Virus record (IMG/VR): IMGVR_UViG_3300020723_000018
Coordinates: 1 to 29,262 of that record
Source of the DNA: a virus
DNA length: 29,262 nt
Direction: 5' to 3' (one strand)
The translations under genes were made by a program, and so were the position numbers. The notes under the pieces are model-generated. The model made no database searches. It worked only from the letters and a program-made list of their open reading frames with translations, and was not told where the DNA came from. This document shows positions 1 through 19,625 of the stretch, piece by piece (the stretch's first letter is position 1; each line of letters opens with the position of its first letter).

Positions 1-2
1 CA

Positions 3-1166
3 CTCAGCAATGCGCTGGTAGTTGGTGATTTGGTCACTATCAATTCCCAAAACACTTTTGCTATTGCTAATGCAATTCCTCTCTCAACTGTTACAGCTAA
101 GGGCGACACAATCGTTGCGACCGGATCTGGATCCGTTACCAACCTCGGCGTAGGCGCTGACGGCACAACACTCGTTGCAAACTCTTCTGCTGGTGGTGGG
201 GTGTCTTGGACTGGCAATCAGGCTGCTGGCAAAAACACTCTCATCAATGGCGTAATGGATATTTGGCAAAGAGGAACTTCTTTCAGCATCTCAGCAGGTG
301 TACCTCAATACACCGCAGACCGTTGGACTAACTACTTCAATGCGGCTGGAACAGTCACTCAAGATACATCATTGGTTCAGGCTGGTCAGAAGTACGGCTT
401 GCGCGTAACTGCTTCTGCCAACTCAGTTGGAAATACAATGTATCAAGTGGTTGAAACTTTCAACACATTACCGCTTGCGGGTCAGACTGTTACTTTGTCT
501 GCTTGGGTTGCTGGTACTTCAGGCAAATCCCCTACGATTGGTATTGACTATTCAACCAATACTGACGATATTTTTCTTGGAACTTATACAACCTTGACAG
601 GAACGGCAATCAAATCCGTAACTACATCAGGTTCTTTCCAGCAAATTGTTTATACTTTTTCAATCCCATCAACTGCCAAAACTTTGCGTATTGCTCTTTA
701 TGCAAACGGTATGAACAATGGCGATTACATCACTTGGTCAAGGGCGCAACTTGAACTAGGCGCAGCCGCTACAACCTTCTCCCGCGCTGGTGGCACACTT
801 CAGGGGGAGTTAGCCGCTTGCCAGAGGTATTACACCCGTTATACGGCTGCTGGTTCTTCTGGTTCTATTCTTGCATTTGCCCCCGCAGTTAGCACAACAA
901 ACTGGTTCTTTACTATCCCAACGCCAGTACCAATGAGGACTACTGCATTAGTTCTTGATGGCGGTAGTTCAGGCTTGCAAGTTCAAACTTATGGTGTAAA
1001 TTCTTATTCGTCTGGAACTTGGAGTGCTTCATATTATGGCAATTCAAATGCCGTAGGAGTTACATATGGAAAGGGCGGTTCAGATTCCGCTTGGAGCCAA
1101 GGTCAGATTGGCAACATAACAAATACAAGTTCTGGCGCTTACCTAGGATTTAGTGCGGAGTTATAG
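3..1166 (+). CDS. Receptor-binding / tail-fibre protein, copy 1 (5' truncated by the window edge)
   Basis: The reading frame is open from the first complete codon at position 3, so the gene starts upstream; a TTG at 30 is only an internal codon. The residues before the KGD motif align by eye with the region before the same motif in the fibre gene at 2522. Visible residues (387): a phage-fibre module IPLSTVTAKGD...GADGTTLVANSS at about 26-65, then a central module with GKN..INGVMDIWQRGTSF at about 75-92 and ADRW. Next come a beta-rich segment (LAGQTVTLSAWV), RAGGTLQGELAACQRYY with Cys273, and a variable distal domain ending in SAEL. The INGxxDIWQRG...CQRYY architecture is a frequent phage tail-fibre family. 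It should bind host surface structures, but the ligand is unknown. The small gene at 1166 overlaps its stop codon. Confidence 0.8.
   Translation, partial: LSNALVVGDLVTINSQNTFAIANAIPLSTVTAKGDTIVATGSGSVTNLGVGADGTTLVANSSAGGGVSWTGNQAAGKNTLINGVMDIWQRGTSFSISAGVPQYTADRWTNYFNAAGTVTQDTSLVQAGQKYGLRVTASANSVGNTMYQVVETFNTLPLAGQTVTLSAWVAGTSGKSPTIGIDYSTNTDDIFLGTYTTLTGTAIKSVTTSGSFQQIVYTFSIPSTAKTLRIALYANGMNNGDYITWSRAQLELGAAATTFSRAGGTLQGELAACQRYYTRYTAAGSSGSILAFAPAVSTTNWFFTIPTPVPMRTTALVLDGGSSGLQVQTYGVNSYSSGTWSASYYGNSNAVGVTYGKGGSDSAWSQGQIGNITNTSSGAYLGFSAEL
149..190 (+). repeat. 42-bp perfect direct repeat, copy in fibre 1
   Basis: The 42 bases from CGTAGGCGCTGACGG onward are identical to 5872-5913 in fibre copy 5. 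They encode the VGADGTTLVANSS part of the KGD module. The identity includes synonymous positions, which points to recent exchange or duplication rather than protein-level constraint alone. Confidence 0.9.
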
Positions 1167-1333
1167 TGGACACAATTACTTATCAAGATATTCCTCAACC
1201 AGACGGAACAACCGTTTCATACGCATTTATCAATCGGGCTGACGGCACATTTACTTCAATGCCAAAAAGCATTTACGATGCTATGCAAGCTGCAAGCACA
1301 CTCCAATCTTCTATCCCACAGGCAGGTGAATAA
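1166..1333 (+). CDS. Small fibre-accessory protein, type B (55 aa)
   Basis: A GTG start overlaps the TAG stop of the preceding fibre gene (TAGTG), and the TAA stop overlaps the next ATG (TAATG). This is strict translational coupling. The product begins VDTITYQDIPQPDGTTVSYA and continues FINRADGTFTSMPKSIYDAMQAA. It resembles the 53-aa product at 6888: both have T(I/V)T(Y/F)QDI near the N-terminus and a (D/N)GxxTSM motif before a short helix. Because it always follows a fibre gene, I infer a fibre-assembly chaperone or a small subunit of the fibre, but no known domain is recognised. No Shine-Dalgarno sequence is needed if ribosomes reinitiate. The reality of the gene is supported by the paralogue; its function is inference. 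Confidence 0.65.
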   Translation: MDTITYQDIPQPDGTTVSYAFINRADGTFTSMPKSIYDAMQAASTLQSSIPQAGE

Positions 1334-2295
1334 TGAGCAGAGCGCAATTAACCTCAACGGTTGAGCAGAACACAGGTGGGGCAGTAGCTCCGTTTGTGGC
1401 TGGCAAAAATTATGTGGCTAACGGTGGGTTTGACATTTGGCAGAGAGCCACAACAACATCAACTGTTCAAGCGACATATTCAACGGCTGATAGATGGTAT
1501 GCAAATCTTATTGGAACAACAACAATTTCTCAAGAAACTTCTGATTTGCCATCTGCGATTGGTGTGCAGTATGCGCTGAAATATGTGACAAGTGGCGCTT
1601 CTGCGTTTGCTCAGTATTATCAAGCATTAGAGCAAGCAGTTGTAAAGCCTATGCGTGGGCAAACATTTACTATATCTGCTTATGTAAAATTAACAGGTGG
1701 ATATGCTGGCATTCTTTATTCTTACATTGATTACTCAAACAGCACAGATGCTTTAGGCTCACAAACAACCAATGTGGCAATTAACGCTTTTGGCAATGCC
1801 TCAAACGCTTCTGGATGGACAAGATTTACAGGAACATTTACAGTTCCATCAGATGCAGTTGGATTGCGCGTAGGTTTTATTCCTGACACTGCTCAAGGCT
1901 CAGGCGTTACAGTCCGAATTACGGGAATACAACTAGAGCAGGGCAAGGTAGCCACCCCATTCAGCCGAGCAGGTGGCACACTCCAAGGAGAGTTAGCCTT
2001 GTGCCAGCGGTATTACTGGTTCAGCGGAGCAAATGGATATTCTGCTTATGACAATATCTTTTTCTCGGGAAATGTTACTTCAGGTGTAACTTATTATGCT
2101 TGGTGCAGATTGCCAGTAACAATGAGAGGCACTCCAGCAGTTACTTTTACAAGCACTAATAACAATGGTTTTCCTGCATCCTCTGGTACTGCTTCAGATT
2201 TAACACCAACTGGATTTTATGAAGCGCGAACTGCTAATAGCAGCACTAATGGCGCTTACTTTGGAAGCAATGTAACGGCTAGTGCGGAGTTATAA
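1333..2295 (+). CDS. Receptor-binding / tail-fibre protein, copy 2
   Basis: A 320-aa fibre paralogue with a short N-terminal segment (MSRAQLTSTVEQNTGG) instead of the KGD-type anchor of copies 1, 3 and 5. The central module starts at about residue 23 (AGKNYVANGGFDIWQRA), followed by ADRW, then FSRAGGTLQGELALCQRYYW with Cys224. The distal tip of about 95 residues ends in SAEL. The short N-terminus suggests it attaches to the virion differently from copy 3, or sits on another fibre. Positions 1948-1998 are identical to 3926-3976 in copy 3. The ATG overlaps the preceding stop (TAATG), so expression is coupled to the upstream accessory gene. The family assignment is firm; receptor specificity cannot be read from sequence. 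Confidence 0.82.
   Translation: MSRAQLTSTVEQNTGGAVAPFVAGKNYVANGGFDIWQRATTTSTVQATYSTADRWYANLIGTTTISQETSDLPSAIGVQYALKYVTSGASAFAQYYQALEQAVVKPMRGQTFTISAYVKLTGGYAGILYSYIDYSNSTDALGSQTTNVAINAFGNASNASGWTRFTGTFTVPSDAVGLRVGFIPDTAQGSGVTVRITGIQLEQGKVATPFSRAGGTLQGELALCQRYYWFSGANGYSAYDNIFFSGNVTSGVTYYAWCRLPVTMRGTPAVTFTSTNNNGFPASSGTASDLTPTGFYEARTANSSTNGAYFGSNVTASAEL
1948..1998 (+). repeat. 51-bp perfect direct repeat, copy in fibre 2
   Basis: Identical to 3926-3976. It encodes VATPFSRAGGTLQGELA just before the CQRYY motif, at the border between the central module and the variable tip. A 21-base core of it also occurs in fibre copy 4 at 5146-5166. Confidence 0.9.
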
Positions 2296-2465
2296 TGAAC
2301 GAATATACCTACACAATCCCAACTAACCCAATGACAGGTCAGCCTTCAACCACAGTAATCCAGCGCTCAGATGGCTGGTTCATTCCTTCCGACCCTGCCA
2401 ACTCAGACTACCAAGCCTATCTAGCCACACTTGCAGCCAACTCAGCCCCACAGCCACAAGCTTAA
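2295..2465 (+). CDS. Small fibre-accessory protein, type A (56 aa)
   Basis: The ATG overlaps the preceding fibre stop (TAATG). The product starts MNEYTYTIPTNPMTGQPSTT and contains RSDGWFIPSDPANSDYQAYL. Closely related products lie at 4249 and 5508. The motif IPxDPxNxDYQxYL is common in small genes beside phage tail fibres and is seen in XkdW-like and tail-assembly-related proteins, so a role in fibre folding or attachment is plausible. It is the last gene before a 56-bp gap holding the ribosome-binding site of the next fibre. Its 3' end shares 26 identical bases with the paralogue at 5508 (2418-2443 and 5631-5656). The gene call is supported by three conserved copies; the function is inferred. 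Confidence 0.7.
   Translation: MNEYTYTIPTNPMTGQPSTTVIQRSDGWFIPSDPANSDYQAYLATLAANSAPQPQA
2418..2443 (+). repeat. 26-bp repeat in type A accessory gene (first copy)
   Basis: TATCTAGCCACACTTGCAGC plus the next six bases recur exactly at 5631-5656. It encodes YLATLAAN at the end of two type A accessory genes. Confidence 0.85.
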
Positions 2466-2509
2466 GACCTGTAATACACCTACTTTCTGATATTATTAGG
2501 CAGTTCCCG

Positions 2510-2515
2510 AAGGAG
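2510..2515 (+). promoter_or_regulatory. Ribosome-binding site fixing a GTG start
   Basis: AAGGAG lies six bases before the GTG at 2522. This strong Shine-Dalgarno match supports GTG as the start of the third fibre gene, where no ATG is available. The 56-bp gap 2466-2521 also has an AT-rich TATTAT at 2491-2496 that could be a -10 element, but no convincing -35 is visible. Confidence 0.6.
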
Positions 2516-2521
2516 TAAACC

Positions 2522-4249
2522 GTGGCCATTTCGTTCCCCTCGTCCCCAGTAGCTGGCACGTCCATCTACCAGGGCGGTAGGCAATGGACCTATGACGGTA
2601 CTACTTGGAACTTAGTATTGGGCGGAGCCTATGAACTCTACTGGACCCACACAGGGACAGGTGGGGAGACTACCCTCTCTGGAGCTTCCGATAATGGAAC
2701 TACCCTTACCTATCCACTAGGCGGGGAGAATGTCTACCTCAATGGTGTTCTACTAGTACGTGGATCTGACTATACAGCCACTACCGGCTCTACCATTGTT
2801 TTAGCTAACCCACTTGCCGTTTCAGATATCCTCACAGTGGTCTCTTATCCAGCTGTTCAGATGTCTAGCAATAACATTGCTCAGACTACAGAACCAACAA
2901 CCTATACCCCTGGTATGGTCTGGGTTAATACGGCGGGAAACACTCAAGGTCTACAGCTAGTACGCTGGAAGAAAACTCCTACAGGAGGAACTACCGTTCT
3001 CTCAGGCCTAGCAGATGATGGCACAACTACTCTTGCCTATACAGCGGGTTATGAAGAAGTCTATGTCAATGGTATCTTGATTGTTAAGGGTGTTGACTAC
3101 ACCGCCACTAACGGTACCTCAATCACATTAACTCAAGCCACAGTAACTGGAGATACCGTAGAAGTATTTAACACCATCACTATGGGCGTTACTAATACAT
3201 ATACCCAATCCCAATCTGATGCTAGATATATCCCGCTTTCTCAGTTCACAGCCAAGGGCGACATCCTGGTTGGAACCGGATCCGGAAGTGAAACAGCACT
3301 CAATGTCGGAGCTGACGGTTCAACACTCGTGGCAAACTCTTCTGCCAGCACAGGTTTATCTTGGGCAGGGCCTTCAGTAGCGGCTGGAAAGAACTTTGTC
3401 ATCAACGGTGGTATGGATATTTGGCAGCGTGGAACTACCTACACAGGAACTTATGGTGCGGTAGCAGATAGATTCTTCAACGGTACTGATTCAACAATGA
3501 CGATAAGCCAGCAAGCATTTACTCCTGGCAATCCGATTTCTGGATATGAACCTGCTTACTATTTGCAGATTGCCAAAAGCTCAGGCGGTTCATATACCGA
3601 TATGGCACACTCCATAGAAGATGTGCGTACACTCGCTGGACAAACTTTTACTTTCTCATTCTGGGGAAGAGTAACTTCTGGAACTATTGGTTACGGCTTT
3701 GGTTTCAATCAAAACTTTGGAACAGGTGGCTCAACTCAAGTTGCTGGCCCACAACCAGCATTTAACTTGACTACCACTTGGCAGCGTTTTACCTACACAG
3801 GAGCGATGCCATCTATTTCAGGTAAGACACTCGGCCCTAGCAGCAAAGTTCAAATTTATGGATACTGCGGAACATCGGCTGCGGTAACAATTCAACTTTG
3901 GGGATTGCAACTTGAGGCTGGCTCAGTAGCCACCCCATTCAGCCGAGCAGGTGGCACACTCCAAGGAGAGTTAGCCGCTTGTCAGAGGTATTGCTATGTA
4001 GCAACAAACCAGATGGCAGGAAACACAATCACTGCTGGTATTACTGGCGGAGCGTTTTATTTTCCTGTAACAATGCGAACTGCGCCAACATTTACTAACG
4101 GTTCATTTACTGCATCGTCAGGAAGCAATGGAACCTTTGGTGCTTCTATCATTAGTACGGGAAGTTATAATTTTTACAATGCTTCTGGCAACTGGTCTAC
4201 CCCAGGATATAACATTCAAGCATCCTTTGTTGCAAGTGCGGAGTTGTAA
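2522..4249 (+). CDS. Receptor-binding / tail-fibre protein, copy 3 (long N-terminus)
   Basis: At 575 aa this is the longest member, and it probably shows the complete architecture that copy 1 lacks because of the window edge. The N-terminus (MAISFPSSPVAG...Y..GRQWTYDGTTW) is a common phage-fibre start. Two tandem beta repeats follow at about 42-112 and 148-215. Each has TLSG/VLSG, a D.GTT.L.Y segment, (V/Y)YxNGxL(L/I)V(R/K)GxDYTAT and a closing hydrophobic strand. Then come an IPLSQFTAKGD module at about 238, the central INGGMDIWQRG module at about 290, CQRYC around Cys487, and a distal tip ending in SAEL. The start is GTG with AAGGAG six bases upstream. This is the only fibre of the first five copies with a free-standing ribosome-binding site, so it may begin a new translational unit. 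Confidence 0.85.
   Translation: MAISFPSSPVAGTSIYQGGRQWTYDGTTWNLVLGGAYELYWTHTGTGGETTLSGASDNGTTLTYPLGGENVYLNGVLLVRGSDYTATTGSTIVLANPLAVSDILTVVSYPAVQMSSNNIAQTTEPTTYTPGMVWVNTAGNTQGLQLVRWKKTPTGGTTVLSGLADDGTTTLAYTAGYEEVYVNGILIVKGVDYTATNGTSITLTQATVTGDTVEVFNTITMGVTNTYTQSQSDARYIPLSQFTAKGDILVGTGSGSETALNVGADGSTLVANSSASTGLSWAGPSVAAGKNFVINGGMDIWQRGTTYTGTYGAVADRFFNGTDSTMTISQQAFTPGNPISGYEPAYYLQIAKSSGGSYTDMAHSIEDVRTLAGQTFTFSFWGRVTSGTIGYGFGFNQNFGTGGSTQVAGPQPAFNLTTTWQRFTYTGAMPSISGKTLGPSSKVQIYGYCGTSAAVTIQLWGLQLEAGSVATPFSRAGGTLQGELAACQRYCYVATNQMAGNTITAGITGGAFYFPVTMRTAPTFTNGSFTASSGSNGTFGASIISTGSYNFYNASGNWSTPGYNIQASFVASAEL
3926..3976 (+). repeat. 51-bp perfect direct repeat, copy in fibre 3
   Basis: Partner of 1948-1998, about 2 kb downstream in the same orientation and frame. 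Exchange here would swap the tip domain and the following accessory gene between fibre copies 2 and 3. Confidence 0.9.
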
Positions 4250-4428
4250 TGGAAACTTACACATACACAATCCCAACTGACCCTTTTACTGGTCAGCCTT
4301 CTACGGAAGTTATTGTTCGCTCAGATGGTGCTTGGATACCAACCGACCCATCAAATGCCGATTATCAGGCATACCTCAATAAAGACACACTCGTATCCAA
4401 CTCTTCTACACCACAGGCAGGTGCATAA
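4249..4428 (+). CDS. Small fibre-accessory protein, type A (59 aa)
   Basis: TAATG overlap with the preceding fibre stop. The product METYTYTIPTDPFTGQPSTE is followed by IVRSDGAWIPTDPSNADYQAYL, a clear paralogue of the products at 2295 and 5508. It differs near the C-terminus, where NKDTLVSNSSTPQAGA replaces the ATLAANS tail. The next fibre ATG follows the stop directly. The conserved IPTDPSN.DYQAYL core and the fixed position behind a fibre gene suggest a cognate chaperone or cap for fibre copy 3. No membrane segment, signal peptide or catalytic motif is visible. Confidence 0.7.
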   Translation: METYTYTIPTDPFTGQPSTEVIVRSDGAWIPTDPSNADYQAYLNKDTLVSNSSTPQAGA

Positions 4429-5508
4429 ATGACTAGAGCTAGAGACAACTCAAATATCTTAGGTACTTCAGGTACTAATGGTCAAGTACTTACTGTTGAT
4501 ACCAACCAAAGTAACGGTTATGCTTTTGAGAACCCCGCTCAGTATGCTGCTGGCAAGAATAAGATCATCAATGGCGATTTTGCTTTGGCGCAACGTGGGG
4601 GAACAGTCAATCCAAGTGGAACGGGCTTGAATTACACATTAGACCGCTGGCGTGTGTATAACTATGGTTCAGCATCAACGACTGTTACACAAATTGCCTT
4701 TGATTACTCATCATCCCCCTCTGCCGCTCAAGCACCAATCACAGGATACTCCGCTCCATATTTTGCAAGAGTAAATGCCACAACATCTGCTACATATTTT
4801 GAACAACCAGTTGAGGATGTGCGCACATTTTCGGGGCAAACGGTTACTTATTCATTTTGGGCTAAAGCCGCAAGTGCAGTTTCAGGAGCGCAAGCACAGA
4901 TTTACCAATACTTTGGTTCAGGCGGGTCCGCAAATGTCTTGGCAACAAATATAAATTACAACCTGACAACTTCTTGGCAAAGAATTACTTATACAACAAC
5001 TTTGCCATCTGTAGTTGGAAAAACTATTGGCGCAGGAAGTTCAATAGGTTTACTCTTGTACACGCCTACAACTGGCGTAAATGTAGATTTTTGGGGCGTG
5101 CAGTTAGAAGCAGGTTCGGTAGCCACACCTTTCACCACAGCATCAGGCACACTCCAAGGAGAGTTAAGCCTCTGCCAGAGGTACTATCAACGCTTTACCG
5201 CTGGAAGTGCGGCTGCATACTGGCGTATTGCTATTGGGCAAAATTTGAATACAACTCAAAGTCAATTTGTGTTTCCCTTGAGAACAACGATGAGAGGCGT
5301 ACCTGCTTACAACGCTTCTGGTTCATTTACAGTTCGCCAAGGAGATTCTGCAATCGGTACTTCTGCTCCAATTTTACAAGGTGATGGAACAACTGCTGAT
5401 TCAGCAGGTTTAATTGCGGGAGTATCGGGAGCAACAGTTGCTTATGGTTGCTATCTGCGAACCGAAAACTCAACATCAGCATACTTAGAGTTTAGTGCGG
5501 AGTTATAA
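4429..5508 (+). CDS. Receptor-binding / tail-fibre protein, copy 4
   Basis: A 359-aa fibre paralogue with a third kind of N-terminus (MTRARDNSNILGTSGTNGQV...) of about 40 residues. The central module begins AAGKNKIINGDFALAQRGG, where the usual DIWQRG is changed to ALAQRG. It continues with DRWRVYNYGS, an EDVRTFSGQTVTYSFWAKAA strand block, and GTLQGELSLCQRYYQRF with Cys249. The segment normally reading FSRAGGT is FTTASGT here. The tip ends EFSAEL. The central block is closest to copy 3 by eye (YxxPYxxxxxAxxS..Y...xEDVRT), and the nucleotide junction at its end matches that of copy 2. Expression is coupled to its neighbours; the ligand is unknown. Confidence 0.82.
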   Translation: MTRARDNSNILGTSGTNGQVLTVDTNQSNGYAFENPAQYAAGKNKIINGDFALAQRGGTVNPSGTGLNYTLDRWRVYNYGSASTTVTQIAFDYSSSPSAAQAPITGYSAPYFARVNATTSATYFEQPVEDVRTFSGQTVTYSFWAKAASAVSGAQAQIYQYFGSGGSANVLATNINYNLTTSWQRITYTTTLPSVVGKTIGAGSSIGLLLYTPTTGVNVDFWGVQLEAGSVATPFTTASGTLQGELSLCQRYYQRFTAGSAAAYWRIAIGQNLNTTQSQFVFPLRTTMRGVPAYNASGSFTVRQGDSAIGTSAPILQGDGTTADSAGLIAGVSGATVAYGCYLRTENSTSAYLEFSAEL

Positions 5509-5681
5509 TGAACGAATACACATACACAATCCCAACTGACCCAATGACAGGTCAGCCATCAACATCGTTAATCATTCGCTCAGATGGTTGGCAAATTCCC
5601 ACCGACCCTTCTAATTCTATGTATCAAGCTTATCTAGCCACACTTGCAGCCAACTCTTCTACACCACAGGCAGGTGAATAA
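5508..5681 (+). CDS. Small fibre-accessory protein, type A (57 aa)
   Basis: TAATG overlaps at both ends couple it to fibre copies 4 and 5. The product MNEYTYTIPTDPMTGQPSTS continues LIIRSDGWQIPTDPSNSMYQAYL. It is nearly the same as the product at 2295 over the first 20 residues, and the DNA around both starts is also nearly identical. This suggests that the end of a fibre gene plus its accessory gene has been copied as one unit. The otherwise conserved D before YQAYL is M here. A fibre-assembly role is inferred. Confidence 0.7.
   Translation: MNEYTYTIPTDPMTGQPSTSLIIRSDGWQIPTDPSNSMYQAYLATLAANSSTPQAGE
5631..5656 (+). repeat. 26-bp repeat in type A accessory gene (second copy)
   Basis: Exact partner of 2418-2443. 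The shorter CTTGCAGCCAACTCAGCCCC also links the ends of the genes at 2295 and 6888, so the 3' ends of accessory genes are themselves mosaic. Confidence 0.85.
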
Positions 5682-6886
5682 TGGCAAATTTTAGTAATAC
5701 CAGTCGTCCCGCTTACGTTTGGGATGGGGTCAATAACCAATGGGTACCTGTTGGCGTAGGCCCACATACCCACTCAGTAGCCGATGTAGCTAACGCTGCA
5801 ACAGTAACTACCTATACCGCCAAAGGCGATCTAGCTCTAGGCACTGGTGCTAGCACCGTAGGCACTTTAAACGTAGGCGCTGACGGCACAACACTCGTTG
5901 CAAACTCTTCTGCCAGCACAGGCGTTGCTTGGGCAGGGCCTTCTTTGGCTGGTGGCAAGAACTGGCTCATCAACGGAAACTTTGACATTTGGCAACGAGG
6001 AACTTCTACCTCAAGCCTTGGAGTTTATTTGGCTGACCGATGGGTTGTAGCCACATTTTCTGGCGGCGGCACATTTTCTCAAAATACTTCCCTTGTTCCT
6101 AGCAACGCGCAAAACTCAATAACTTATACTTGCGCAACAAGCGGAAACCCAATCATCTTACAAGCAATTGAAACGCTCAACTCAATTTACTTGGCTGGTC
6201 AAACAGTTACAGTTTCCGCATATTTGGCTACATCGGCTGCTCAAAGCGTAGATATTCACATTGAATATTCAACAACAGTTGATGCTGCTTGGAATGCTGG
6301 AACTTATAGTGGGCTTACACAAACAGTATCAACAACATCCTCGCTTGTGAAAAAAACCGCGACAACAACTATTCCTTCAAATGCCAAAACAGTTCGTGTT
6401 TATTTCACAACAACGGCTGCAATGTCGGCTAGTGCAACATTGACGGTTGCTCAGGTTCAGTTGGAATTAGGCTCAGTAGCAACTGCCTTCTCCCGCGCTG
6501 GCGGAACACTTCAGGGGGAGTTAAATGCCTGTCAGAGGTACTACTACAAGCGCAATGGAACTTCTTTGAATGGCCTATACCCACCTTTGGCTCAAGGAAG
6601 TGCTTATTCAACAACTCAGGCAGAAGTAACTATATTCTTCCCAGTTCCAATGCGTGTAGGCCCAACAGCGGTTGAATCACCAACAACAGTTTCATATCTT
6701 GCTTTATGGGATGGTGTAACGCTTACTGCACTCAACGCTGCTCCGACCATTCCTGGCGGTGGAAGCGGTATAGACGGTGCAAGATTATACGCACCAGTTG
6801 CCAGCGGTTTGACCCAGTATCGCCCTTATACATTGCTAAATAACAATGTTGCTGGCGGATACCTAGCATTTAGTGCGGAGTTGTAA
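5681..6886 (+). CDS. Receptor-binding / tail-fibre protein, copy 5
   Basis: A 401-aa fibre paralogue. The N-terminus MANFSNTSRPAYVWDGVNNQW leads to VGVGPHTHSVADV, a GPHTHS-type segment common in phage fibre anchors. A TAKGDLALGTGAS...GADGTTLVANSS module follows at about 46-78. The central module starts at Lys93 (GKNWLINGNFDIWQRGTS), with ADRW and FSRAGGTLQGELNACQRYYY around Cys284. The variable tip ends AFSAEL. Its KGD module shares a perfect 42-bp stretch (5872-5913) with copy 1 (149-190), and its CQRY-region DNA is of the copy 1 subtype rather than the subtype of copies 2-4. Copies 1 and 5 therefore look like one lineage and 2-4 another. Confidence 0.84.
   Translation: MANFSNTSRPAYVWDGVNNQWVPVGVGPHTHSVADVANAATVTTYTAKGDLALGTGASTVGTLNVGADGTTLVANSSASTGVAWAGPSLAGGKNWLINGNFDIWQRGTSTSSLGVYLADRWVVATFSGGGTFSQNTSLVPSNAQNSITYTCATSGNPIILQAIETLNSIYLAGQTVTVSAYLATSAAQSVDIHIEYSTTVDAAWNAGTYSGLTQTVSTTSSLVKKTATTTIPSNAKTVRVYFTTTAAMSASATLTVAQVQLELGSVATAFSRAGGTLQGELNACQRYYYKRNGTSLNGLYPPLAQGSAYSTTQAEVTIFFPVPMRVGPTAVESPTTVSYLALWDGVTLTALNAAPTIPGGGSGIDGARLYAPVASGLTQYRPYTLLNNNVAGGYLAFSAEL
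5872..5913 (+). repeat. 42-bp perfect direct repeat, copy in fibre 5
   Basis: Partner of 149-190, 5.7 kb downstream in the same orientation. Recombination between the two copies would delete or duplicate the whole intervening set of fibre cassettes while leaving a fused fibre in frame. Confidence 0.9.
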
Positions 6887-6887
6887 T

Positions 6888-7049
6888 ATGGACAATGTAA
6901 CCTTTCAAGATATAACCGACCCTTTGACTAATGTAGCAATAACTTACGCGATTATTGACCGAGGCAACGGGGAATATACCTCCATGCTCAAGGCTGATTA
7001 CGAAGCCTTACTTGCAGCCAACTCAGCCCCACAAACCCCCACAGCTTAG
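6888..7049 (+). CDS. Small fibre-accessory protein, type B (53 aa)
   Basis: The ATG begins one base after the stop of fibre copy 5. The product MDNVTFQDITDPLTNVAITY continues AIIDRGNGEYTSMLKADYEALLAANS. It pairs with the type B product at 1166, which also follows a fibre of the copy 1/5 lineage, so accessory type tracks fibre lineage. The C-terminal LLAANSAP resembles the end of the type A gene at 2295. The stop is followed by about 30 bp containing a TATAGT hexamer (7052-7057) and AAGGAG (7071-7076) before the next gene. The function is inferred to be fibre assembly; no known domain is recognised. Confidence 0.65.
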   Translation: MDNVTFQDITDPLTNVAITYAIIDRGNGEYTSMLKADYEALLAANSAPQTPTA

Positions 7050-7080
7050 GCTATAGTTAGGGCCATAACGAAGGAGTCCC

Positions 7081-8013
7081 ATGGCAACAGCTTCATATCC
7101 AAATCAGGTTAAAACCTACCAACCAGAGGTTGACCTTGTCAGCACCGTTTTGGCTGATAACGTAAACTCACTACAGGTTGAGATTACTGCTATTGAGACA
7201 ACCCTTGGTTCTGCCCTGACCAATCAAAGCCCCCTGATTTCTACCTACTCAGGAACTTTTGCTAAGACTACCGGTTGGTCTACCTTGGGCGATCGCCTCA
7301 ATAACATTGAGTATGGCTTGGTAAATGGTGTGGCTAATAGTCCATATGTCAGCATTACCGGTGGAAGCACTATTACCACTAGCTCTACAAAAGGCCTTGT
7401 ATTAAAGGTAGGCTCAGGAACAGCTAACCTTATTGAGACCTACACCTCTGGCTCTGTATTGGGATTCAATGTTAACTCCTCTGGTATTCCAGCTGTGGGT
7501 TCTAGTAACGTTCTCTATGTTAATAGCACTGACTACAATACCCTTACGGCTGCTACGACTGCCGCCAATAATAACGCCAATACCAAGATCCCTCTTTCAA
7601 CTGTAACAGCTGCGGGAGATCTTCTTATTGGTTCAGGTAATGCCACCGTAACTAACCTTGCTAAAGGGGCTGCCGGTCAGTCTCTTATTATGAACGGCAC
7701 CTCAGTTGCTTGGGGTACCCCAACAGATACTACAAAGATTCCACTAAGCACAGTTAGTGCTGCTGGTGATCTTGTGGTGGGAACGGGCGCCTCAGCTGTA
7801 GGTCGCTTGGGTATTGGTGGAGCTGGTACAGTTCTTAGCAGCAATGGTTCTGCCCTTTCATGGCAGACCCCAACAGTTTATCTTGCAACAGCAAATGCTT
7901 CAGTAACAGCCGCCTCAACTTCTCTAGGCGTTGTCCGCAATACATGGGTCTCTACAACAGCACCAACAACAGGCCAGGGCAACGATGGAGACATCTGGAT
8001 TGTGTATCAGTAA
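7081..8013 (+). CDS. Tail-fibre / minor tail protein with KGD-type repeats
   Basis: A 310-aa protein with AAGGAG four bases before the ATG. The N-terminal QPEVDLVSTVLADNVNSLQ plus VEITAIETTLGS is a short helical or coiled-coil segment of a type common at the start of phage fibre proteins. A beta-rich middle follows. Two repeats then occur at about 170 and 220, each reading IPLSTV(T/S)A(A)GDL..G(S/T)G.A.V..L and ending in a xSLxW/ALSW strand. They are diverged relatives of the KGD modules in the fibre array. The C-terminus TTGQGNDGDIWIVYQ is typical of phage fibre ends. The INGxxDIWQRG receptor module is absent. TAATG overlap with the next gene suggests the two products act together, for example as shaft and tip. 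Confidence 0.72.
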   Translation: MATASYPNQVKTYQPEVDLVSTVLADNVNSLQVEITAIETTLGSALTNQSPLISTYSGTFAKTTGWSTLGDRLNNIEYGLVNGVANSPYVSITGGSTITTSSTKGLVLKVGSGTANLIETYTSGSVLGFNVNSSGIPAVGSSNVLYVNSTDYNTLTAATTAANNNANTKIPLSTVTAAGDLLIGSGNATVTNLAKGAAGQSLIMNGTSVAWGTPTDTTKIPLSTVSAAGDLVVGTGASAVGRLGIGGAGTVLSSNGSALSWQTPTVYLATANASVTAASTSLGVVRNTWVSTTAPTTGQGNDGDIWIVYQ

Positions 8014-9032
8014 TGCCAGGTAAAGTTAATGTAAATGGCGGACAGGGTACAAGCATTGGTATCCTTGTAAAGGTAAGCGGAGCATGGCATGGGGCTACTT
8101 CAGCCTTTATTAAAGTTGGCGGTCAATGGAAGCAATGGTTTAAGGCCTCTGTCATTGACTCCTTTAACCGTACAACCTCAGGCAATCTAGGCACAGCCGA
8201 TAGCGGGCAAGCTTGGAGTGCTACCCGAGGTACTTGGTTTGCCAATGGATCCCAGGCTCAATCCAATGACTCTGCCTCTAACTACTCTATTGCCGCTATT
8301 GATACTGGTAGCGCTAGCAATATCCAGACTGTTGGTGCCACAACTAACGGCACTGGAGCTGCTCAGTGGATTACCGATAGCGGTAACTGGTTTGGCGTAG
8401 CAGCTGGCCAAGAGGTAGTTAACACGGTCTACTACTACACCTGTGGATGTCAAACATGTAGCGCCTGTGCTTCATCTCAGACAGTTGGACCTGTAGGTGC
8501 TGGCTGTGGATGTACGGGTGGAGGAACCTCATATTACGTATGTATTACAGGTACCATATGTAACTATTACGCTACATACGGCGGAGGTTCTTACCTATAC
8601 TACGTCGCATATTGCTACAACCATTATGGGGTATGCTCTACCTACACCCCATGCTCTTATTCCTGTGCGTACTATTACTATTACACGCAGTGTACTTCCT
8701 CATATACCCATACCTGTGGCTGTTCAACATGCCAGGGAGGTAGCGTCAGCTACCCAGCCTTTGTCTATGTTTATCAGTCTGTAGCAAATGCCGTAACAAC
8801 GGTACTACGTACCGCCATATCAGCCGTTGCTGCCAGCTTAAAGGTCGTTACATCGGGCGGGAATACAATTACGGTCACCCCGTACTCTGACTCCCTTACA
8901 ACCCCTATAGGAAGCCCAATTACCTATACAGCCTCCAGTACCCAGACTGCCACACAGTTTGGTATACTTCTTTCACCTTCTCAGTACAACCAAGGTAGTA
9001 CTCTAGATAACTACCAGTCCCAGAACAACTAG
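8013..9032 (+). CDS. Minor tail protein with a Cys/Tyr-rich insert
   Basis: A 339-aa product, starting at the ATG that overlaps the upstream stop. Codons before 8013 in this frame are open but lie inside the previous gene. Residues about 1-48 contain a VxxGxW..ATSAFIKVGGQWKQW segment typical of phage minor tail proteins. About 50-135 is a beta-sandwich-like module with DSFNRTTSGNLG, GTWFANGSQAQ and WITDSGNWFGV, the pattern of LamG-like modules I associate with actinophage tails. Residues 140-240 hold 16 Cys and 22 Tyr, including a run of five Tyr, bounded by CGCQTC (144-149) and CGCSTC (235-240). The last about 95 residues return to ordinary beta-rich sequence. The insert could be disulfide- or metal-stabilised and surface-exposed. 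Receptor binding is inference. Confidence 0.75.
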   Translation: MPGKVNVNGGQGTSIGILVKVSGAWHGATSAFIKVGGQWKQWFKASVIDSFNRTTSGNLGTADSGQAWSATRGTWFANGSQAQSNDSASNYSIAAIDTGSASNIQTVGATTNGTGAAQWITDSGNWFGVAAGQEVVNTVYYYTCGCQTCSACASSQTVGPVGAGCGCTGGGTSYYVCITGTICNYYATYGGGSYLYYVAYCYNHYGVCSTYTPCSYSCAYYYYYTQCTSSYTHTCGCSTCQGGSVSYPAFVYVYQSVANAVTTVLRTAISAVAASLKVVTSGGNTITVTPYSDSLTTPIGSPITYTASSTQTATQFGILLSPSQYNQGSTLDNYQSQNN

Positions 9033-13521: not shown

Positions 13522-15288
13522 ATGGCAACATTTGCCCGCCCCGGAGTCTATATCCAAGAAGTGGCTCTACCTCAGGCGATTACACCTGCAAATACTTCAA
13601 CAGCAGTTGCTGCATTTGTTGGTGCTCTTGCTCAAGGTCCAACAGCCGCTCCAGCATACGTAAGTACCTGGAACGACTTCAAGAACACATTCGGTGGACT
13701 ATCAGACTCTTACCCAACCACTTGGGCTGCCTATAACTATTTTTCTAATGGCGGTCGTGGTTTGTATGTAAAGCGTGTAGTAGGATCAGGATCAACCTCA
13801 GCGTCAACAGCTATTACTGATGGCTTGTCAGGAACACTTACAGCTACAGTAACAGCAGCTAGCGCCGCAACAGGTACTGTCACATATACAGCTAACAATA
13901 CATTCTCAGCAGGTCAGACAGTAACAATTACTGGCCTCTCTACCTCAGCTTTTAACTTGAGCGGTGTAACAATCGCATCAGCTACAAGCTCACAGTTCAC
14001 TGTAACAAATGCAGCTACAGGCACAGCAGTAACAGGTGCTTCAGCTACAGCTACAGTAACTTTGACACCATCAAACGTCTTTACTTTGACTGCTCTTAAC
14101 CCAGGTTCATGGGGAAATAACTATGCAGTACAGGTAACTTCAGCAGGTGTTTCTAACCGCTTTGGTCTAAACATCTACGCATCTTCAATCGTAAACGGAA
14201 TCACATCATCTACTTTGGTTGAATCCTACTCAGATTTGAGCATGTCCTCAACAGACTCTAACTACATTGGCGCAGTTATTGCTGCTCAATCTAACCTAGT
14301 AAGCGTTGGAACAATCAACTCTGCTAAGTTCCCAGGAGTTACTAGCTCAAACGTTAGCCTAACTTCAGGTGTTGACGGAGCCGCCCCAGCACGTACAGAT
14401 TATGCAGCTGGATGGACAACATACGATGCAGTTGCTACAAGCTTGGTTATCTATGCAGCTGATGCTCCATATGCTTCTACAGCTACATTGACCGCACAGA
14501 TCCATGGAGACGCAGTAGCTTATGCAGCTACTCGTACAGACTGCTTTGCAGTTATTGATACTCCATCAGGACTAGCAAATGCCGCTGCTGCACAACAGCA
14601 GGTCACAGCAACATCTGCAATCTTTGCCGCAGCAACTTCAGGCGGAATTGCAGCTGCTTACTGGCCTTGGGTTAACATCCCAGATCCAACAAAGATCCCA
14701 GGAGCAGTTCGTCTACAGGCTCCAGGTGCTGCAGTAGTTGGACAGTACACATTTACAGATGCAAACCGTGGTCCAGCAAAAGCTCCAGCAGGTCTTCAGA
14801 ACCGTATTGCTCTTGCAGTATCTACTGAACACAACTTCACAAATGCTGAGCTTGATACACTCAACACATCATCAGACCCAATCAACACTATCCGTCAGGT
14901 ACCTGGCGCAGGTATTGTAGTTATGGGTGCTCGTACTCTTGATAACACTCCTAACAACCGTTATATCAATATCCGCCGTTCTTTGATTTACATCGAAAAG
15001 CGCCTTACTGATCTAACATCGTTCGCTCTATTTGAGAACAATGACGAGCGTCTATGGAATCAAATCAATACAGCAGTAAGCAGCTTCCTATTCTCATATT
15101 GGAATACTGGAAACTTGCGTGGAAATACTTCCGCTCAGGCTTACTACGTAATCTGTGACGGACGTAACAACTCATTTACTGATATCCAAAACGGTAAGGT
15201 AAATATCACAGTTGGCGTCGCACTAGAATATCCAGCAGAGTTCGTTGTCATTCAGATCGGACAACTAACAGGAAACGCTACGGCGTAA
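13522..15288 (+). CDS. Tail sheath protein with inserted beta domain
   Basis: The N-terminus MATFARPGVYIQEVALPQAI is the classic phage sheath start (Phage_sheath_1 family), followed by STAVAAFVGALAQGP, a WNDFKNTFGG segment and FFxNGGRGLYVKRVVG. The C-terminal domain has NTIRQVPGAGIVVMGARTLD, YINIRRSLIYIEKRL, FALFENNDERLWNQINTAVSSF and a final NITVGVALEYPAEFVVIQI strand set, as expected for a contracting sheath subunit. Residues about 104-182 are a Thr/Ala-rich beta insert between the usual N-terminal strands and FTLTALNPGSWGNN. It contains FSAGQTVTITGLSTSAFNLS and FTVTNAATG. At 588 aa the protein is in the normal sheath size range. AAGGAG lies eight bases upstream. It polymerises around the tube from the next gene. 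Confidence 0.95.
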   Translation: MATFARPGVYIQEVALPQAITPANTSTAVAAFVGALAQGPTAAPAYVSTWNDFKNTFGGLSDSYPTTWAAYNYFSNGGRGLYVKRVVGSGSTSASTAITDGLSGTLTATVTAASAATGTVTYTANNTFSAGQTVTITGLSTSAFNLSGVTIASATSSQFTVTNAATGTAVTGASATATVTLTPSNVFTLTALNPGSWGNNYAVQVTSAGVSNRFGLNIYASSIVNGITSSTLVESYSDLSMSSTDSNYIGAVIAAQSNLVSVGTINSAKFPGVTSSNVSLTSGVDGAAPARTDYAAGWTTYDAVATSLVIYAADAPYASTATLTAQIHGDAVAYAATRTDCFAVIDTPSGLANAAAAQQQVTATSAIFAAATSGGIAAAYWPWVNIPDPTKIPGAVRLQAPGAAVVGQYTFTDANRGPAKAPAGLQNRIALAVSTEHNFTNAELDTLNTSSDPINTIRQVPGAGIVVMGARTLDNTPNNRYINIRRSLIYIEKRLTDLTSFALFENNDERLWNQINTAVSSFLFSYWNTGNLRGNTSAQAYYVICDGRNNSFTDIQNGKVNITVGVALEYPAEFVVIQIGQLTGNATA

Positions 15289-16952: not shown

Positions 16953-19625
16953 ATGGCAGATGCTTTTGGCAATATGGTCGGAGCCTCAGATACACCTGAG
17001 GGTCTAGGTACTGTTGGCAGTACATCTTTTGACGACATGCCTAAAGAACTTCTTAAGCTCTTTACAGAAGTAGAAAAAGTTGTCAAGCGAATCAGTGACG
17101 ACTGGAAGAGCACATCTGCCGATATTAAAAAGACTTCCGGTCTTGTTGGCTCACAGAATGTGGGTTCAGGAAGACTAGGGCTAGGTTCATTTAGCCCAGC
17201 TCAAGCTGCAACCGGTCTAGGACTAGGCGTTGTAGCTGTAGGTGCCACAGCTATGTCAATGGCACCAAGCACCATGGCTGCAGTAACTCAAGCTATGGGT
17301 GCATCAACTTATGCCGGTTTTGCTGGCATGTCAAATATGCAGGCAACCCGAATGGCCAACTCTCAAGTTGGTATGGGTGCCACAAGCGCTATGGGTCCAA
17401 CCATGGCTGCTATGACTTTATCTAACATGGGTTACACAGCTAACTCAATGAGCTCTCAGAATGTCATGACTCAGATTGCAGGCTTGAGTGCCATGACTGG
17501 CATGAGCAACGAACAAGTTGCCGGTGCTATGGGTGGCGTTAATGGAATGAACTTTCTGCGTCTTGGTATCCGTGTTCGTGATAGTCAAGGTAACTTGCTC
17601 CCACCTAATCAGATTGTTAACTCTGTCTACAACGCCCTCTTCCGTGGACAAAAGATTTCTGCACAGCAGGCTTCAACAGCAGTTCTTAATCCTGGCGGTA
17701 AAGGTTATCAAGTACTTCAGCAAGTAGCTGGCGGCAACCAGGCCTTGATGCAGACTCTTCAGTCGGGCATCATGGCCCGTGCTCAAATTGGAAGCGACAT
17801 TACTTCCTCTCAAATGGGCAATGCTAAGACCATGCTTGGAGCTATGAATGTTGATAAGTCAAGCCCTATGTACTCCAACTTCACAAACAACACTGCTCAA
17901 GCTGGAGCCCTTGCCGCAACAGAGCAGGGATTAGTTGGCGGATACAACACTGCCTTAAATACCAATGCCGCTTTAACCAATGATTTTACTAGCGTAGCTA
18001 ATGCTGCTAAAGGCGTCACTAGTGCTTTAATGGGCCTCAAAGGAATCTTAGACACGTTCCCAGGAGCAGGTAACGTTGGAGGTACTCTTTCAGGTATTGG
18101 AAGCGCAGCGGCCTCTGCAGGCATTAATGCATATGCTACTAAGCGTGCGTTAAAAGGTGTGCTTGGTAAACCAGCAGAAAAAGCAATTGGCCCAGTAATG
18201 TCAAACGGAAAGTTTGTAAAAAAGGGTGAGTCTTTCTTAGGAAAAGCATTTAACTTTGTTAAAGGCCAGTTCCATAACCCATTTAAGGGTAGCAGTATTT
18301 TAGAAGATCTTGCTTTGGGTGCAGAAGACGCTTTAGCTGTTGGTGAAACAGCTGCAGTAGCTGCTGCTGCAGGAGGAGCTTATGACCACGGTAACATGGG
18401 TCATACAGGTATTGGTGGGCCAATAAGCGGAGGACACCAAAATGTCACCCCTGTTCCTAGAGGAACACCTGTAACATCTCCTTACGGACAACGTGGTGGT
18501 GGAGCAAAGACTAAAGGATTCCACGCAGGTCTTGACTTTGGCGCTAAGTTGGGTACTAAGGTTTACGCTCACGATGATGGTGTTGTAACCATTGTTGGTA
18601 ACGGCGGAGGTTACGGTAACTATATTGAAATTGACCATGGCTCATACAGAACCCGCTATGCACACTTAAAGCAGATCTCAGTATCAAGAGGTCAAAAAGT
18701 TTCTGGTGGAACAGTTATTGGTCTATCCGGTAACACAGGTAACTCAACTGGCCCACACCTTCACTTTGAAGTTCTTGTTAATGGCAAGAAGGTTAACCCA
18801 GCCCCATATCTACAGGGGGCTACATCGGGCACACCTGGTTCAAAGACAACAACTCCTACAGGATCTGGTTTATCTAGCCAAGATATAAACTCTCTCATTA
18901 GCAGCCTTGCCTCTACACCAGGAAGCACAGCTTTGGATAATATGTTTGGACAGAATGCCGGACACAACTTGGGTGATGGAAGGTCACTATCCTTTATTAA
19001 GGGAAAGACTTCTGTTACTGCGGGAACTATTTTGGGAACAGGTAGCCAACAAGATTGGGCTAAGACTCTTCTCACAAAGCTAGGAAAGCCTGTAACAAAA
19101 GATAATATTACAGCCCTTACAACTTGGTCTGCTTGGGAAGGTGGCCAGTGGCATAACTCTGCACACTACAACCCACTTAATACTACCCAGGGTGAAAAGG
19201 GCGCAACTAACATGAACTCCGAAGGTGTTAAGTCCTACACCAGCTGGGATCAAGGCTACCAAGCAACTATCCAGACTTTAAATAATGGGCTCTATAAGAG
19301 CATTCTTTCTGCGCTTACTGCAGGTAACAATACGGCAGCAGTTCTTACTGCGGTAGACCAATCGCCTTGGGGAACACACATCCCAGGTTACGGTGGACCT
19401 ACTGGAGATCTAGGAACAGCCTCTATTGCTTCTAGACTGCCTACTGGTGTAGGTGGTCCTTCTGTGGTAACCTCTTCTGCTCATGGTGGGGCAGTAGTTG
19501 TAAACCTAAATATGAAGGTACAGATTGCTCAATCAAGCGTAGCTGAAGCTAAGCGGCTAGTAAGTATGGTGGGTCAAGAATTGAAGAACAGCGCAGTGCT
19601 TAAGAGCCTTGGAGGAGCTATCTAA
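16953..19625 (+). CDS. Tape-measure protein with M23 peptidase and a second hydrolase-like domain
   Basis: An 890-aa protein after tube and chaperone genes, the tape-measure position. Residues about 20-60 are helical and charged. About 86-117 is a Gly/Ala/Met-rich hydrophobic stretch, and the Met/Ala/Gln-rich body extends to about 440. At about 505-625 there is a complete M23 (LytM-type) zinc endopeptidase: SPYGQRGG, HAGLDFGA (His524, Asp528), YAHL (His571) and GPHLHFEV (His602, His604). At about 697-815 a second domain (WAKTLLTKLGKPVT, WSAWEGGQWHNSAHYNPLNT, SWDQGYQATIQTL) resembles a module of actinophage lysins and tape measures. It probably has wall-degrading activity. Tail length would be set by the helical part. 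The cell-wall domains presumably act during injection. Confidence 0.85.
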   Translation: MADAFGNMVGASDTPEGLGTVGSTSFDDMPKELLKLFTEVEKVVKRISDDWKSTSADIKKTSGLVGSQNVGSGRLGLGSFSPAQAATGLGLGVVAVGATAMSMAPSTMAAVTQAMGASTYAGFAGMSNMQATRMANSQVGMGATSAMGPTMAAMTLSNMGYTANSMSSQNVMTQIAGLSAMTGMSNEQVAGAMGGVNGMNFLRLGIRVRDSQGNLLPPNQIVNSVYNALFRGQKISAQQASTAVLNPGGKGYQVLQQVAGGNQALMQTLQSGIMARAQIGSDITSSQMGNAKTMLGAMNVDKSSPMYSNFTNNTAQAGALAATEQGLVGGYNTALNTNAALTNDFTSVANAAKGVTSALMGLKGILDTFPGAGNVGGTLSGIGSAAASAGINAYATKRALKGVLGKPAEKAIGPVMSNGKFVKKGESFLGKAFNFVKGQFHNPFKGSSILEDLALGAEDALAVGETAAVAAAAGGAYDHGNMGHTGIGGPISGGHQNVTPVPRGTPVTSPYGQRGGGAKTKGFHAGLDFGAKLGTKVYAHDDGVVTIVGNGGGYGNYIEIDHGSYRTRYAHLKQISVSRGQKVSGGTVIGLSGNTGNSTGPHLHFEVLVNGKKVNPAPYLQGATSGTPGSKTTTPTGSGLSSQDINSLISSLASTPGSTALDNMFGQNAGHNLGDGRSLSFIKGKTSVTAGTILGTGSQQDWAKTLLTKLGKPVTKDNITALTTWSAWEGGQWHNSAHYNPLNTTQGEKGATNMNSEGVKSYTSWDQGYQATIQTLNNGLYKSILSALTAGNNTAAVLTAVDQSPWGTHIPGYGGPTGDLGTASIASRLPTGVGGPSVVTSSAHGGAVVVNLNMKVQIAQSSVAEAKRLVSMVGQELKNSAVLKSLGGAI

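Follow-up and report, generated by a model that had tools for sequence, protein, structure and literature searches.

A tandem array of five phage fibre genes, each followed by a usually tip-matched micro-gene, in a replaceable island of a lake phage

Chaperones of the T4 gp38 and Tfa type are small proteins encoded immediately 3′ of a fibre gene; they are matched to the distal part of the fibre and are exchanged with it. Branched complexes of multiple receptor-binding proteins (RBPs), in which a long-anchored first protein is accompanied by followers with short peptides, are also known (PMC11414711; PMC6872550), as are host recognition clusters in pelagimyophages and cyanomyophages (PMC7029224) and an island of this kind in freshwater actinophages (PMC10202952). 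Here, we describe a locus in a 29,262-nt stretch of viral DNA (positions 1 to 29,262 of IMG/VR record IMGVR_UViG_3300020723_000018, referred to below as the window), in which five fibre genes alternate with five genes coding for proteins of 53-59 aa (micro-genes). Based on the analysis presented below, we consider it likely that the five fibres are co-expressed and make up a multi-fibre device for attachment, probably a branched one, whose units of fibre tip and micro-gene are exchangeable and whose genes lie in a replaceable island.

The array resembles branched RBP systems, such as Ackermannviridae TSP1-4 (PMC11414711) and the RBPs of G7C, K1-5, and Klebsiella KP32-type phages (PMC6872550), in having several adjacent receptor-binding genes with distinct N-terminal classes in a preferred order, a long anchor on the first protein, short conserved N-terminal peptides on the followers, and a variable C-terminal specificity part that is exchanged between phages. 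Unlike these systems, it has bodies resembling a carbohydrate-binding module (CBM) instead of beta-helical tailspikes, no Pfam match to a gp10-like docking domain was obtained in fibre 1 or 3, and each fibre is provided with its own, usually tip-matched micro-gene and with relay coupling. In contrast to gp38 and Tfa, the micro-proteins have no meaningful Pfam match, match only PHROGs of unknown function, have no PDB fold match, and form many paralogues in two sequence classes. As in the host-recognition islands (PMC7029224, PMC10202952), a hypervariable tail-fibre island lies inside the structural region and is exchanged between relatives; here, however, single cassettes can be told apart within it, the anchors follow an order rule, and an empty site was found. 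Puniceispirillum phage HMO-2011 (homologous fibre C-terminus) and Prochlorococcus phage P-TIM68 (homologous micro-protein), both cultured, each have a small gene directly after a fibre gene, but as a single pair in which the small gene was left as 'hypothetical protein', while the window has an array of five. In Streptomyces phage BRock (Borockvirus), the nearest named sheath relative, the order of portal, capsid, sheath, and baseplate genes is the same, but capsid and sheath are separated by only ~5.5 kb, compared to ~23 kb in the window phage. No description matching an array of fibres with relay-coupled micro-genes was found in the literature searched, most subscription journals being outside its reach; what appears to be new is the logic of the cassettes, along with the rule for anchor order and the family of tip-matched micro-genes.

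Positions are given in window coordinates; negative ones lie upstream of the window edge and were read from sister record G002. The window and records G001, G002, and G003 represent the same phage (99.97-100% identity), and the map was extended to 61.3 kb. The array (Table 1) occupies 7.25 kb, from -204 to 7049, and is identical in the three sister records wherever they cover it; it is therefore no assembly artefact. All six differences between G002 and the window fall outside the array (12204 and 14304-14475), which speaks against gradual within-population variation of the array. Five of them lie within 172 bases (14304-14475) of the tail sheath gene, a cluster that may reflect a sheath variant or assembly mixing. 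The window had no match among named phages searched by DNA, and an Rfam scan of it gave none either.

Each of the five fibres gave a match to PHROG 4492 'tail fiber protein', with E values between 8.7e-34 and 2.8e-49, and their genes are placed in the tail structural region, between head genes and sheath and baseplate genes. A preliminary description of this DNA had reported five paralogous fibre genes alternating with genes of 53-59 aa, and the gene coordinates and PHROG matches bear this out. As to the shared sequences that it pointed to (a central INGxxDIWQRG...CQRYY module and a terminal SAEL), the motifs QGEL..CQRY and SAEL are invariant in all five fibres. It was likewise right in placing a micro-gene directly after each fibre: a TAGTG or TAATG overlap joins the two in four of the five cases, and a 1-nt gap separates them in the case of fibre 5. 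Junctions from a micro-gene to the next fibre are, in order, TAATG, a 56-nt gap before fibre 3, abutting TAAATG, and TAATG. The anchors do differ in type, but that of fibre 1 has to be corrected: the first 68 or 69 residues of this protein lie beyond the window edge, and the full gene reveals a 143-aa anchor of the GGETTLSG type. Fibre 3 has a 287-aa anchor containing the same repeat twice. The tips, described as five different ones, are not five unrelated domains but homologues of ~100 aa. Through relatives, they can be linked into two or more groups (1/4/5 and 2/3), and tips 4 and 5 match directly (E 8e-5).

The homology of all five fibres in the module and, directly or through relatives, in the tip could be explained by a recent tandem duplication of one fibre gene, i.e., by ordinary gene amplification. 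However, the other fibres are only 35-46% identical to fibre 1 overall, their anchors belong to different classes, each of which recurs in other phages at a matching place in the array, and the array looks assembled from older lineages. We regard recent duplication as highly improbable.

A match to CBM_4_9 (PF02018) was obtained with fibre 1 (score 33.2; Pfam cut-off 25.9), while fibres 2 and 5 scored just under the cut-off, fibre 4 far under it, and fibre 3 gave no match. The shared middle module also resembled the CBM4/16/22 beta-sandwich in profile comparison against PDB. An AlphaFold2 model, made for fibre 2 only, matched CBM22 (E 3e-7) and CBM4 (E 6e-7) in Foldseek, and the predicted module matched phage tailspikes as well (best E overall, 3e-7). 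The fibres may be capable of carbohydrate binding.

Searches seeded with the fibres and with the micro-proteins yielded about 180 loci containing 307 open reading frames (ORFs) with the module. Tandem runs of module hits comprised 2 (47 runs), 3 (20), 4 (3), 5 (2), and 9 (1) hits, these being lower bounds on account of contig ends. Arrays of 2-9 genes are common in aquatic metagenomic phages, and five genes in a row, presented in the preliminary description as unusual, form a genuine but not an exceptional array. The longest run (L047:4905-13421) consists of nine module-bearing ORFs, some of them split, perhaps by frameshifts; micro-genes are almost absent in between, and the run closes with a 146-aa gene whose product has an IPxxPxN-type start, apparently representing a different micro-gene arrangement.

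The order of anchors was studied, using 10,000 within-array shuffles, in a de-duplicated set of 36 arrays whose first gene is complete. Anchors with the GETTLSG repeat were found 17 times in the first position and once in a later one (0 of 10,000 shuffles), while short anchors (<45 aa) were found 8 times in the first position and 40 times later (3 of 10,000 shuffles); the sequences being related, these shuffle counts are not strict probabilities. The commonest pattern, repeat-short (RS), accounted for 11 of the 36 arrays. The pattern of the window is R-S-R-S-V, and its fibre 3 provides the sole repeat anchor at a later position. This fibre sits after the only real gap of the array and has its own AAGGAG site, and micro-gene 2, which precedes it, is the one internal micro-gene without a coupling tail. 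In the simplest reading, the window array would consist of two ordinary arrays, one with fibres 1-2 and one with fibres 3-4-5, placed one after the other, with the gap at 2466-2521 as the seam.

The micro-proteins fall into two classes, IPxDPxNxDYQAYL (class I) and IIDRGNGEFTSM (class II). Across 155 micro-bearing cassettes, similarity of the micro-proteins correlated best with that of the tips (rho 0.33; 0 of 200 permutations), while rho for anchor versus tip was 0.03. Similarity of the micro-proteins correlated with that of the next anchor as well (rho 0.24). The same micro class was found in 637 of 651 tip-similar pairs. Among 42 cassettes with a following fibre, the micro class agreed in all of the 60 most similar tip pairs; the corresponding agreement was 37 of 60 for the anchor of the next gene, which is equally adjacent, and about half for the fibre's own anchor or CBM. 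Exchange of tip and micro-gene together is seen in loci L128 and L158, whose fibres have similarities of 0.13 in the anchor and 0.25 in the module, but 0.97 in the tip and 0.98 in the micro-protein. The 92% identical DNA block shared by these loci begins 6 nt before the CQRY codons. In the similar case of L178 and L133, the shared block begins 27 nt before the CQRY codons and stops within the micro-gene. In the five fibre genes of the window, the 90 nt that end with the CQRYY codons share 62-83% DNA identity, compared to 28% in random in-frame windows and 21-35% in the tips after the joint. We therefore propose that the conserved QGELAxCQRYY joint is a natural crossover point for the exchange of tip and micro-gene.

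Physical linkage during recombination could by itself keep a micro-gene beside a tip, in which case the micro-gene would be a translational spacer or a hitch-hiker. Tip and micro-gene lie next to each other and move together as a single block of DNA when exchanged, and the micro-gene carries the ribosome site of the next gene and tracks, in its similarity, the next anchor as well. Yet linkage alone would not predict the asymmetry between tip and next anchor (60 versus 37 of 60), which disfavours simple linkage as the cause of the matching and favours a working partnership of micro-protein and tip. Further, the matching holds even between tips of low similarity, and the micro-proteins keep a predicted beta-beta-alpha fold (pLDDT, the predicted local distance difference test score, of 85) and are present even after the last fibre. 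A hitch-hiking micro-gene is in our opinion unlikely. The micro-gene behaves as a chaperone gene would, being located directly downstream of the fibre and inherited with its distal part. Nevertheless, Pfam and PHROG scans gave no sequence match to known chaperone families (gp38/Tfa). With 59 micro-proteins, only scattered weak Pfam matches were obtained, and we therefore assign them to none of the known small tail families; sequence comparison with PDB gave chance matches only, and a search with the predicted fold returned no significant structural relative (best E 0.86).

Coupling of the genes was evident at the nucleotide level. Most fibres in the locus set terminate with AEL, and the AEL codons read G-GAG (GCGGAGTTATAATG) in 108 of 129 fibres that have a micro-gene start a few bases further on. 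In uncoupled fibres, G-GAG was found in 7 of 54 cases (the p value of 8e-20 for coupled versus uncoupled fibres is optimistic, since the sequences are related), and among glutamate codons generally in 4%. As judged from the sequence, the AEL codons double as the Shine-Dalgarno site of the micro-gene, and the terminal SAEL is partly a nucleotide signal; the stretch GCGGAGTT at the fibre end would drive micro-gene translation in relay. Micro-proteins encoded directly before a fibre end with QAG plus at most one residue (CAGGCAGGTGAATAATG or similar) in 17 of 38 cases, compared to 1 of 104 among the others. In the window, micro-proteins 1, 3, and 4 have such an end, while 2 and 5 do not. The last codons of a fibre gene would thus serve as the ribosome site for the micro-gene, and the last codons of the micro-gene usually as that for the next fibre. 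Such relayed translation argues that a fibre and its partner, and the cassettes as a whole, are made together.

Table 1. Genes, translation signals, and boundary of the fibre array, in window coordinates.
Feature	Position	Strand	Remarks
Fibre 1	ORF 3-1166 in window; full gene -204..1166 (record G002)	+	456 aa; 5′ end beyond window edge; GETTLSG-repeat 'first-position' anchor, CBM-like module, tip group 1/4/5
Module-tip joint, fibre 1 (..GGTLQGELAACQRYY)	744..833	+	equivalents end at 2016, 3994, 5187, 6544
GGAG within SAEL codons (AGT GCG GAG TTA), putative ribosome site of micro-gene 1	1157..1160	+	
Equivalent GGAG sites, other micro-genes	2286-2289, 4240-4243, 5499-5502, 6877-6880	+	
Micro-gene 1	1166-1333	+	55 aa; GTG start; class II, FTSM type; ends PQAGE
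AGGTG within PQAGE codons of micro-gene 1, putative ribosome site of fibre 2	1324..1328	+	
Equivalent AGGTG sites	4419-4423, 5672-5676	+	fibre 4 and fibre 5, respectively
Fibre 2	1333-2295	+	320 aa; 22-aa MSRAQL 'follower' anchor, CBM4/16/22-like module, tip group 2/3
Micro-gene 2	2295-2465	+	56 aa; class I, IPxDPxNxDYQAYL type; ends PQPQA; uncoupled to next gene
Intergenic gap	2466-2521	+	56 nt; sole true gap inside array; AAGGAG ribosome site 2510-2515 for fibre 3
Fibre 3	2522-4249	+	575 aa; FPSSP and double GETTLSG-repeat 'first-position' anchor, CBM-like module, tip group 2/3
Micro-gene 3	4249-4428	+	59 aa; class I; ends PQAGA
Fibre 4	4429-5508	+	359 aa; short MTRARD 'follower' anchor, tip group 1/4/5
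Micro-gene 4	5508-5681	+	57 aa; class I; ends PQAGE
Fibre 5	5681-6886	+	401 aa; RPAYVWDG/GPHTHS anchor plus KGD segment, CBM-like module, tip group 1/4/5
Micro-gene 5	6888-7049	+	53 aa; class II; uncoupled downstream
Right island boundary	7050..7080	+	identity with L311 begins at 7072
Flanking gene	7081..8013	+	310 aa; conserved in relatives with and without island

Relatives were sought using the sheath as an independent anchor gene, and were hence not selected by fibres. A full fibre-profile match was present in two of the 23 sheath-sharing records, with one gene in each. In G004, whose sheath is 68-69% identical, the local order is exactly the same: five short paralogues come first, then a gene of 77 aa, whose orthologue in the window phage is the 80-aa gene preceding fibre 1, and then the orthologue of gene 7081, of 309 aa. 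No fibre lies between the latter two, and the site is empty. G018 and G019, with a predicted capsid protein 98-99% identical, hold other genes at the site of the array. Locus L311 is 94% identical in DNA from window position 7072 onward, i.e., from 9 nt before gene 7081, and is unrelated upstream of it. G014 and G015 have one fibre with a class II micro-gene, and L312 has one fibre. The array is, then, a discrete replaceable island of the hypervariable host-recognition type, absent or replaced at the same site in relatives. The preliminary description had proposed comparing relatives for gain and loss of cassettes; relatives that always keep the same five genes and tips are not what was found. 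In G005 (L288) and G009 (L299/L300), the variable region holds a syntenic block of about ten genes of ~220-260 aa, which by eye resemble oxygenases or dehydrogenases; similar cargo in the two records suggests a second common island type.

These data bear on whether the array is a static multi-fibre device, in which fibres have fixed baseplate roles and address differing sites on one host surface, with no host-range variety and with the micro-proteins as structural subunits. Anchor classes tied to array position across phages, identity of the array in sister records, and translational relay of most of its genes all agree with a static device. On the other hand, relatives with near-identical capsid or tail proteins either have no array at all or contain a single fibre or different cargo, which means that the virion plan can do without the array, and tips have been exchanged between unlike fibres. 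We therefore view a purely static device as a minor possibility. Since anchor type is tied to position, we favour a multi-fibre device that is fixed within one genome, with tips exchanged between lineages. The 'repertoire' of the preliminary description is partly retained: the five fibres are modular, are paired with dedicated micro-genes, and are located in an island that close relatives lack or replace, but within one genome they appear to form a fixed set.

The same description had also suggested switching. In a switching repertoire, one or a few fibres would be expressed or incorporated at a time, via recombination or regulation. Recombination is conceivable, as the joint DNA is 62-83% identical in five homologous cassettes and micro-gene DNA is up to 84% identical between them. 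However, searches of the recovered 61 kb yielded no invertase or resolvase, no integrase, and no reverse transcriptase (the genome is incomplete, relatives having ~100 kb), which leaves switching by invertase, integrase, or a diversity-generating retroelement without an enzyme there. Internal promoters and terminators were in no excess over chance (11 promoter-like sites found, 11.1 expected), the genes are co-directional and coupled in a one-way, largely relayed operon, and no array variant exists among the sister records. The proposal of switching is not upheld by these results, and we consider it very improbable.

The device could then operate as follows. The island would be the host-recognition part of a contractile-tailed phage, built from cassettes of a fibre and a micro-gene. 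Each fibre would consist of three modules, namely an anchor at the N-terminus, which determines where in the device the fibre sits, a beta-sandwich of the CBM-like type, and a tip of ~100 aa that can be exchanged. The micro-protein would act as a partner to the tip, its likeliest roles being those of an assembly chaperone, a small cap, or a co-subunit, and its gene would travel with the tip when the latter is swapped at the conserved CQRYY joint. Judging from the order of anchors, with the repeat-bearing one first and short ones after it, the first fibre may attach to the virion, and the followers either to this fibre or to neighbouring sites. All five fibres would be displayed at once, variety arising between lineages via exchange of tips or of whole islands.

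Several points weigh against this interpretation. Presence of the five fibres on particles and binding of micro-proteins to tips are presumed from sequence data. Window fibre 4, with a tip of group 1/4/5, has a class I micro-gene, which breaks the usual matching, and micro-proteins 2 and 4 are about 82% identical despite differing tips. While 153 of 156 short micro-gene matches with an upstream gene come after a CBM-type fibre, this count is inflated, since most loci were retrieved by fibre or micro-gene similarity, and the pairs compared are not independent. The fibre model has a mean pLDDT of 67.6, with moderate confidence outside the CBM module. No Pfam match to the T4 gp10-like docking (XD) domain was found in fibre 1 or 3, no separate comparison of the anchors by profile or fold being made, and the case for branching therefore rests on anchor order and precedent. 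Finally, a recombinase may be encoded elsewhere, beyond the 61 kb.

The array is surrounded by portal, sheath, tube, hub, and baseplate wedge genes, which identify the phage as contractile-tailed. The best named sheath matches are Streptomyces phages, and a WhiB gene is present in G003 (PF02467, E 2e-17). WhiB is a key indicator of actinophages (PMC10202952), and the host is therefore probably an actinobacterium. An 890-aa protein in the tape-measure position (window 16953-19625) matches, in its middle, metallo-endopeptidase and endolysin PHROGs. Directly upstream of the fibre array, at -3972..-506 (G002, L167:12959-16425), are five tandem paralogues of a short protein (FSSIPQTYTDLxIxxxGR type, 165-431 aa), whose order is conserved in G004. 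They had no Pfam match above the cut-off and, in the four scanned, no PHROG match; possibly, they are a second set of surface or fibre-tip proteins. Further upstream (L167:12504-12989, window -4427..-3942), a 161-aa protein contains the Major tropism determinant N-terminal domain (PF18454, E 4e-16), though the 61 kb recovered gave no match to a reverse transcriptase. The protein encoded by the ORF at 7860-9032 is conserved except for an insert rich in Cys and Tyr (CGCQTCSACASSQ...TCGCSTCQGG); the called start of this ORF overlaps gene 7081-8013, and translation probably begins further on, at an ATG close to where that gene ends.

It is quite possible, though we put it forward tentatively, that the micro-genes are a large unrecognised family of tip-cognate partners (chaperones or caps) in uncultured aquatic phages, and that cassettes of fibre, tip, and micro-gene with relay sites are standard interchangeable parts that can be extended end to end into multi-receptor devices, the anchor setting placement. 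A widespread unannotated micro-protein family is thereby given a name and a concrete putative role. The AEL case is a warning against taking C-terminal conservation as a sign of protein function alone. Gain and loss of phage host range in nature are hard to see for uncultured aquatic phages; here, the exchangeable unit of tip and micro-gene, the joint, the seam, the ordering rule, and the island boundary can all be read from sequence, which may offer a route to predicting receptor-binding parts and their partners in metagenomes.

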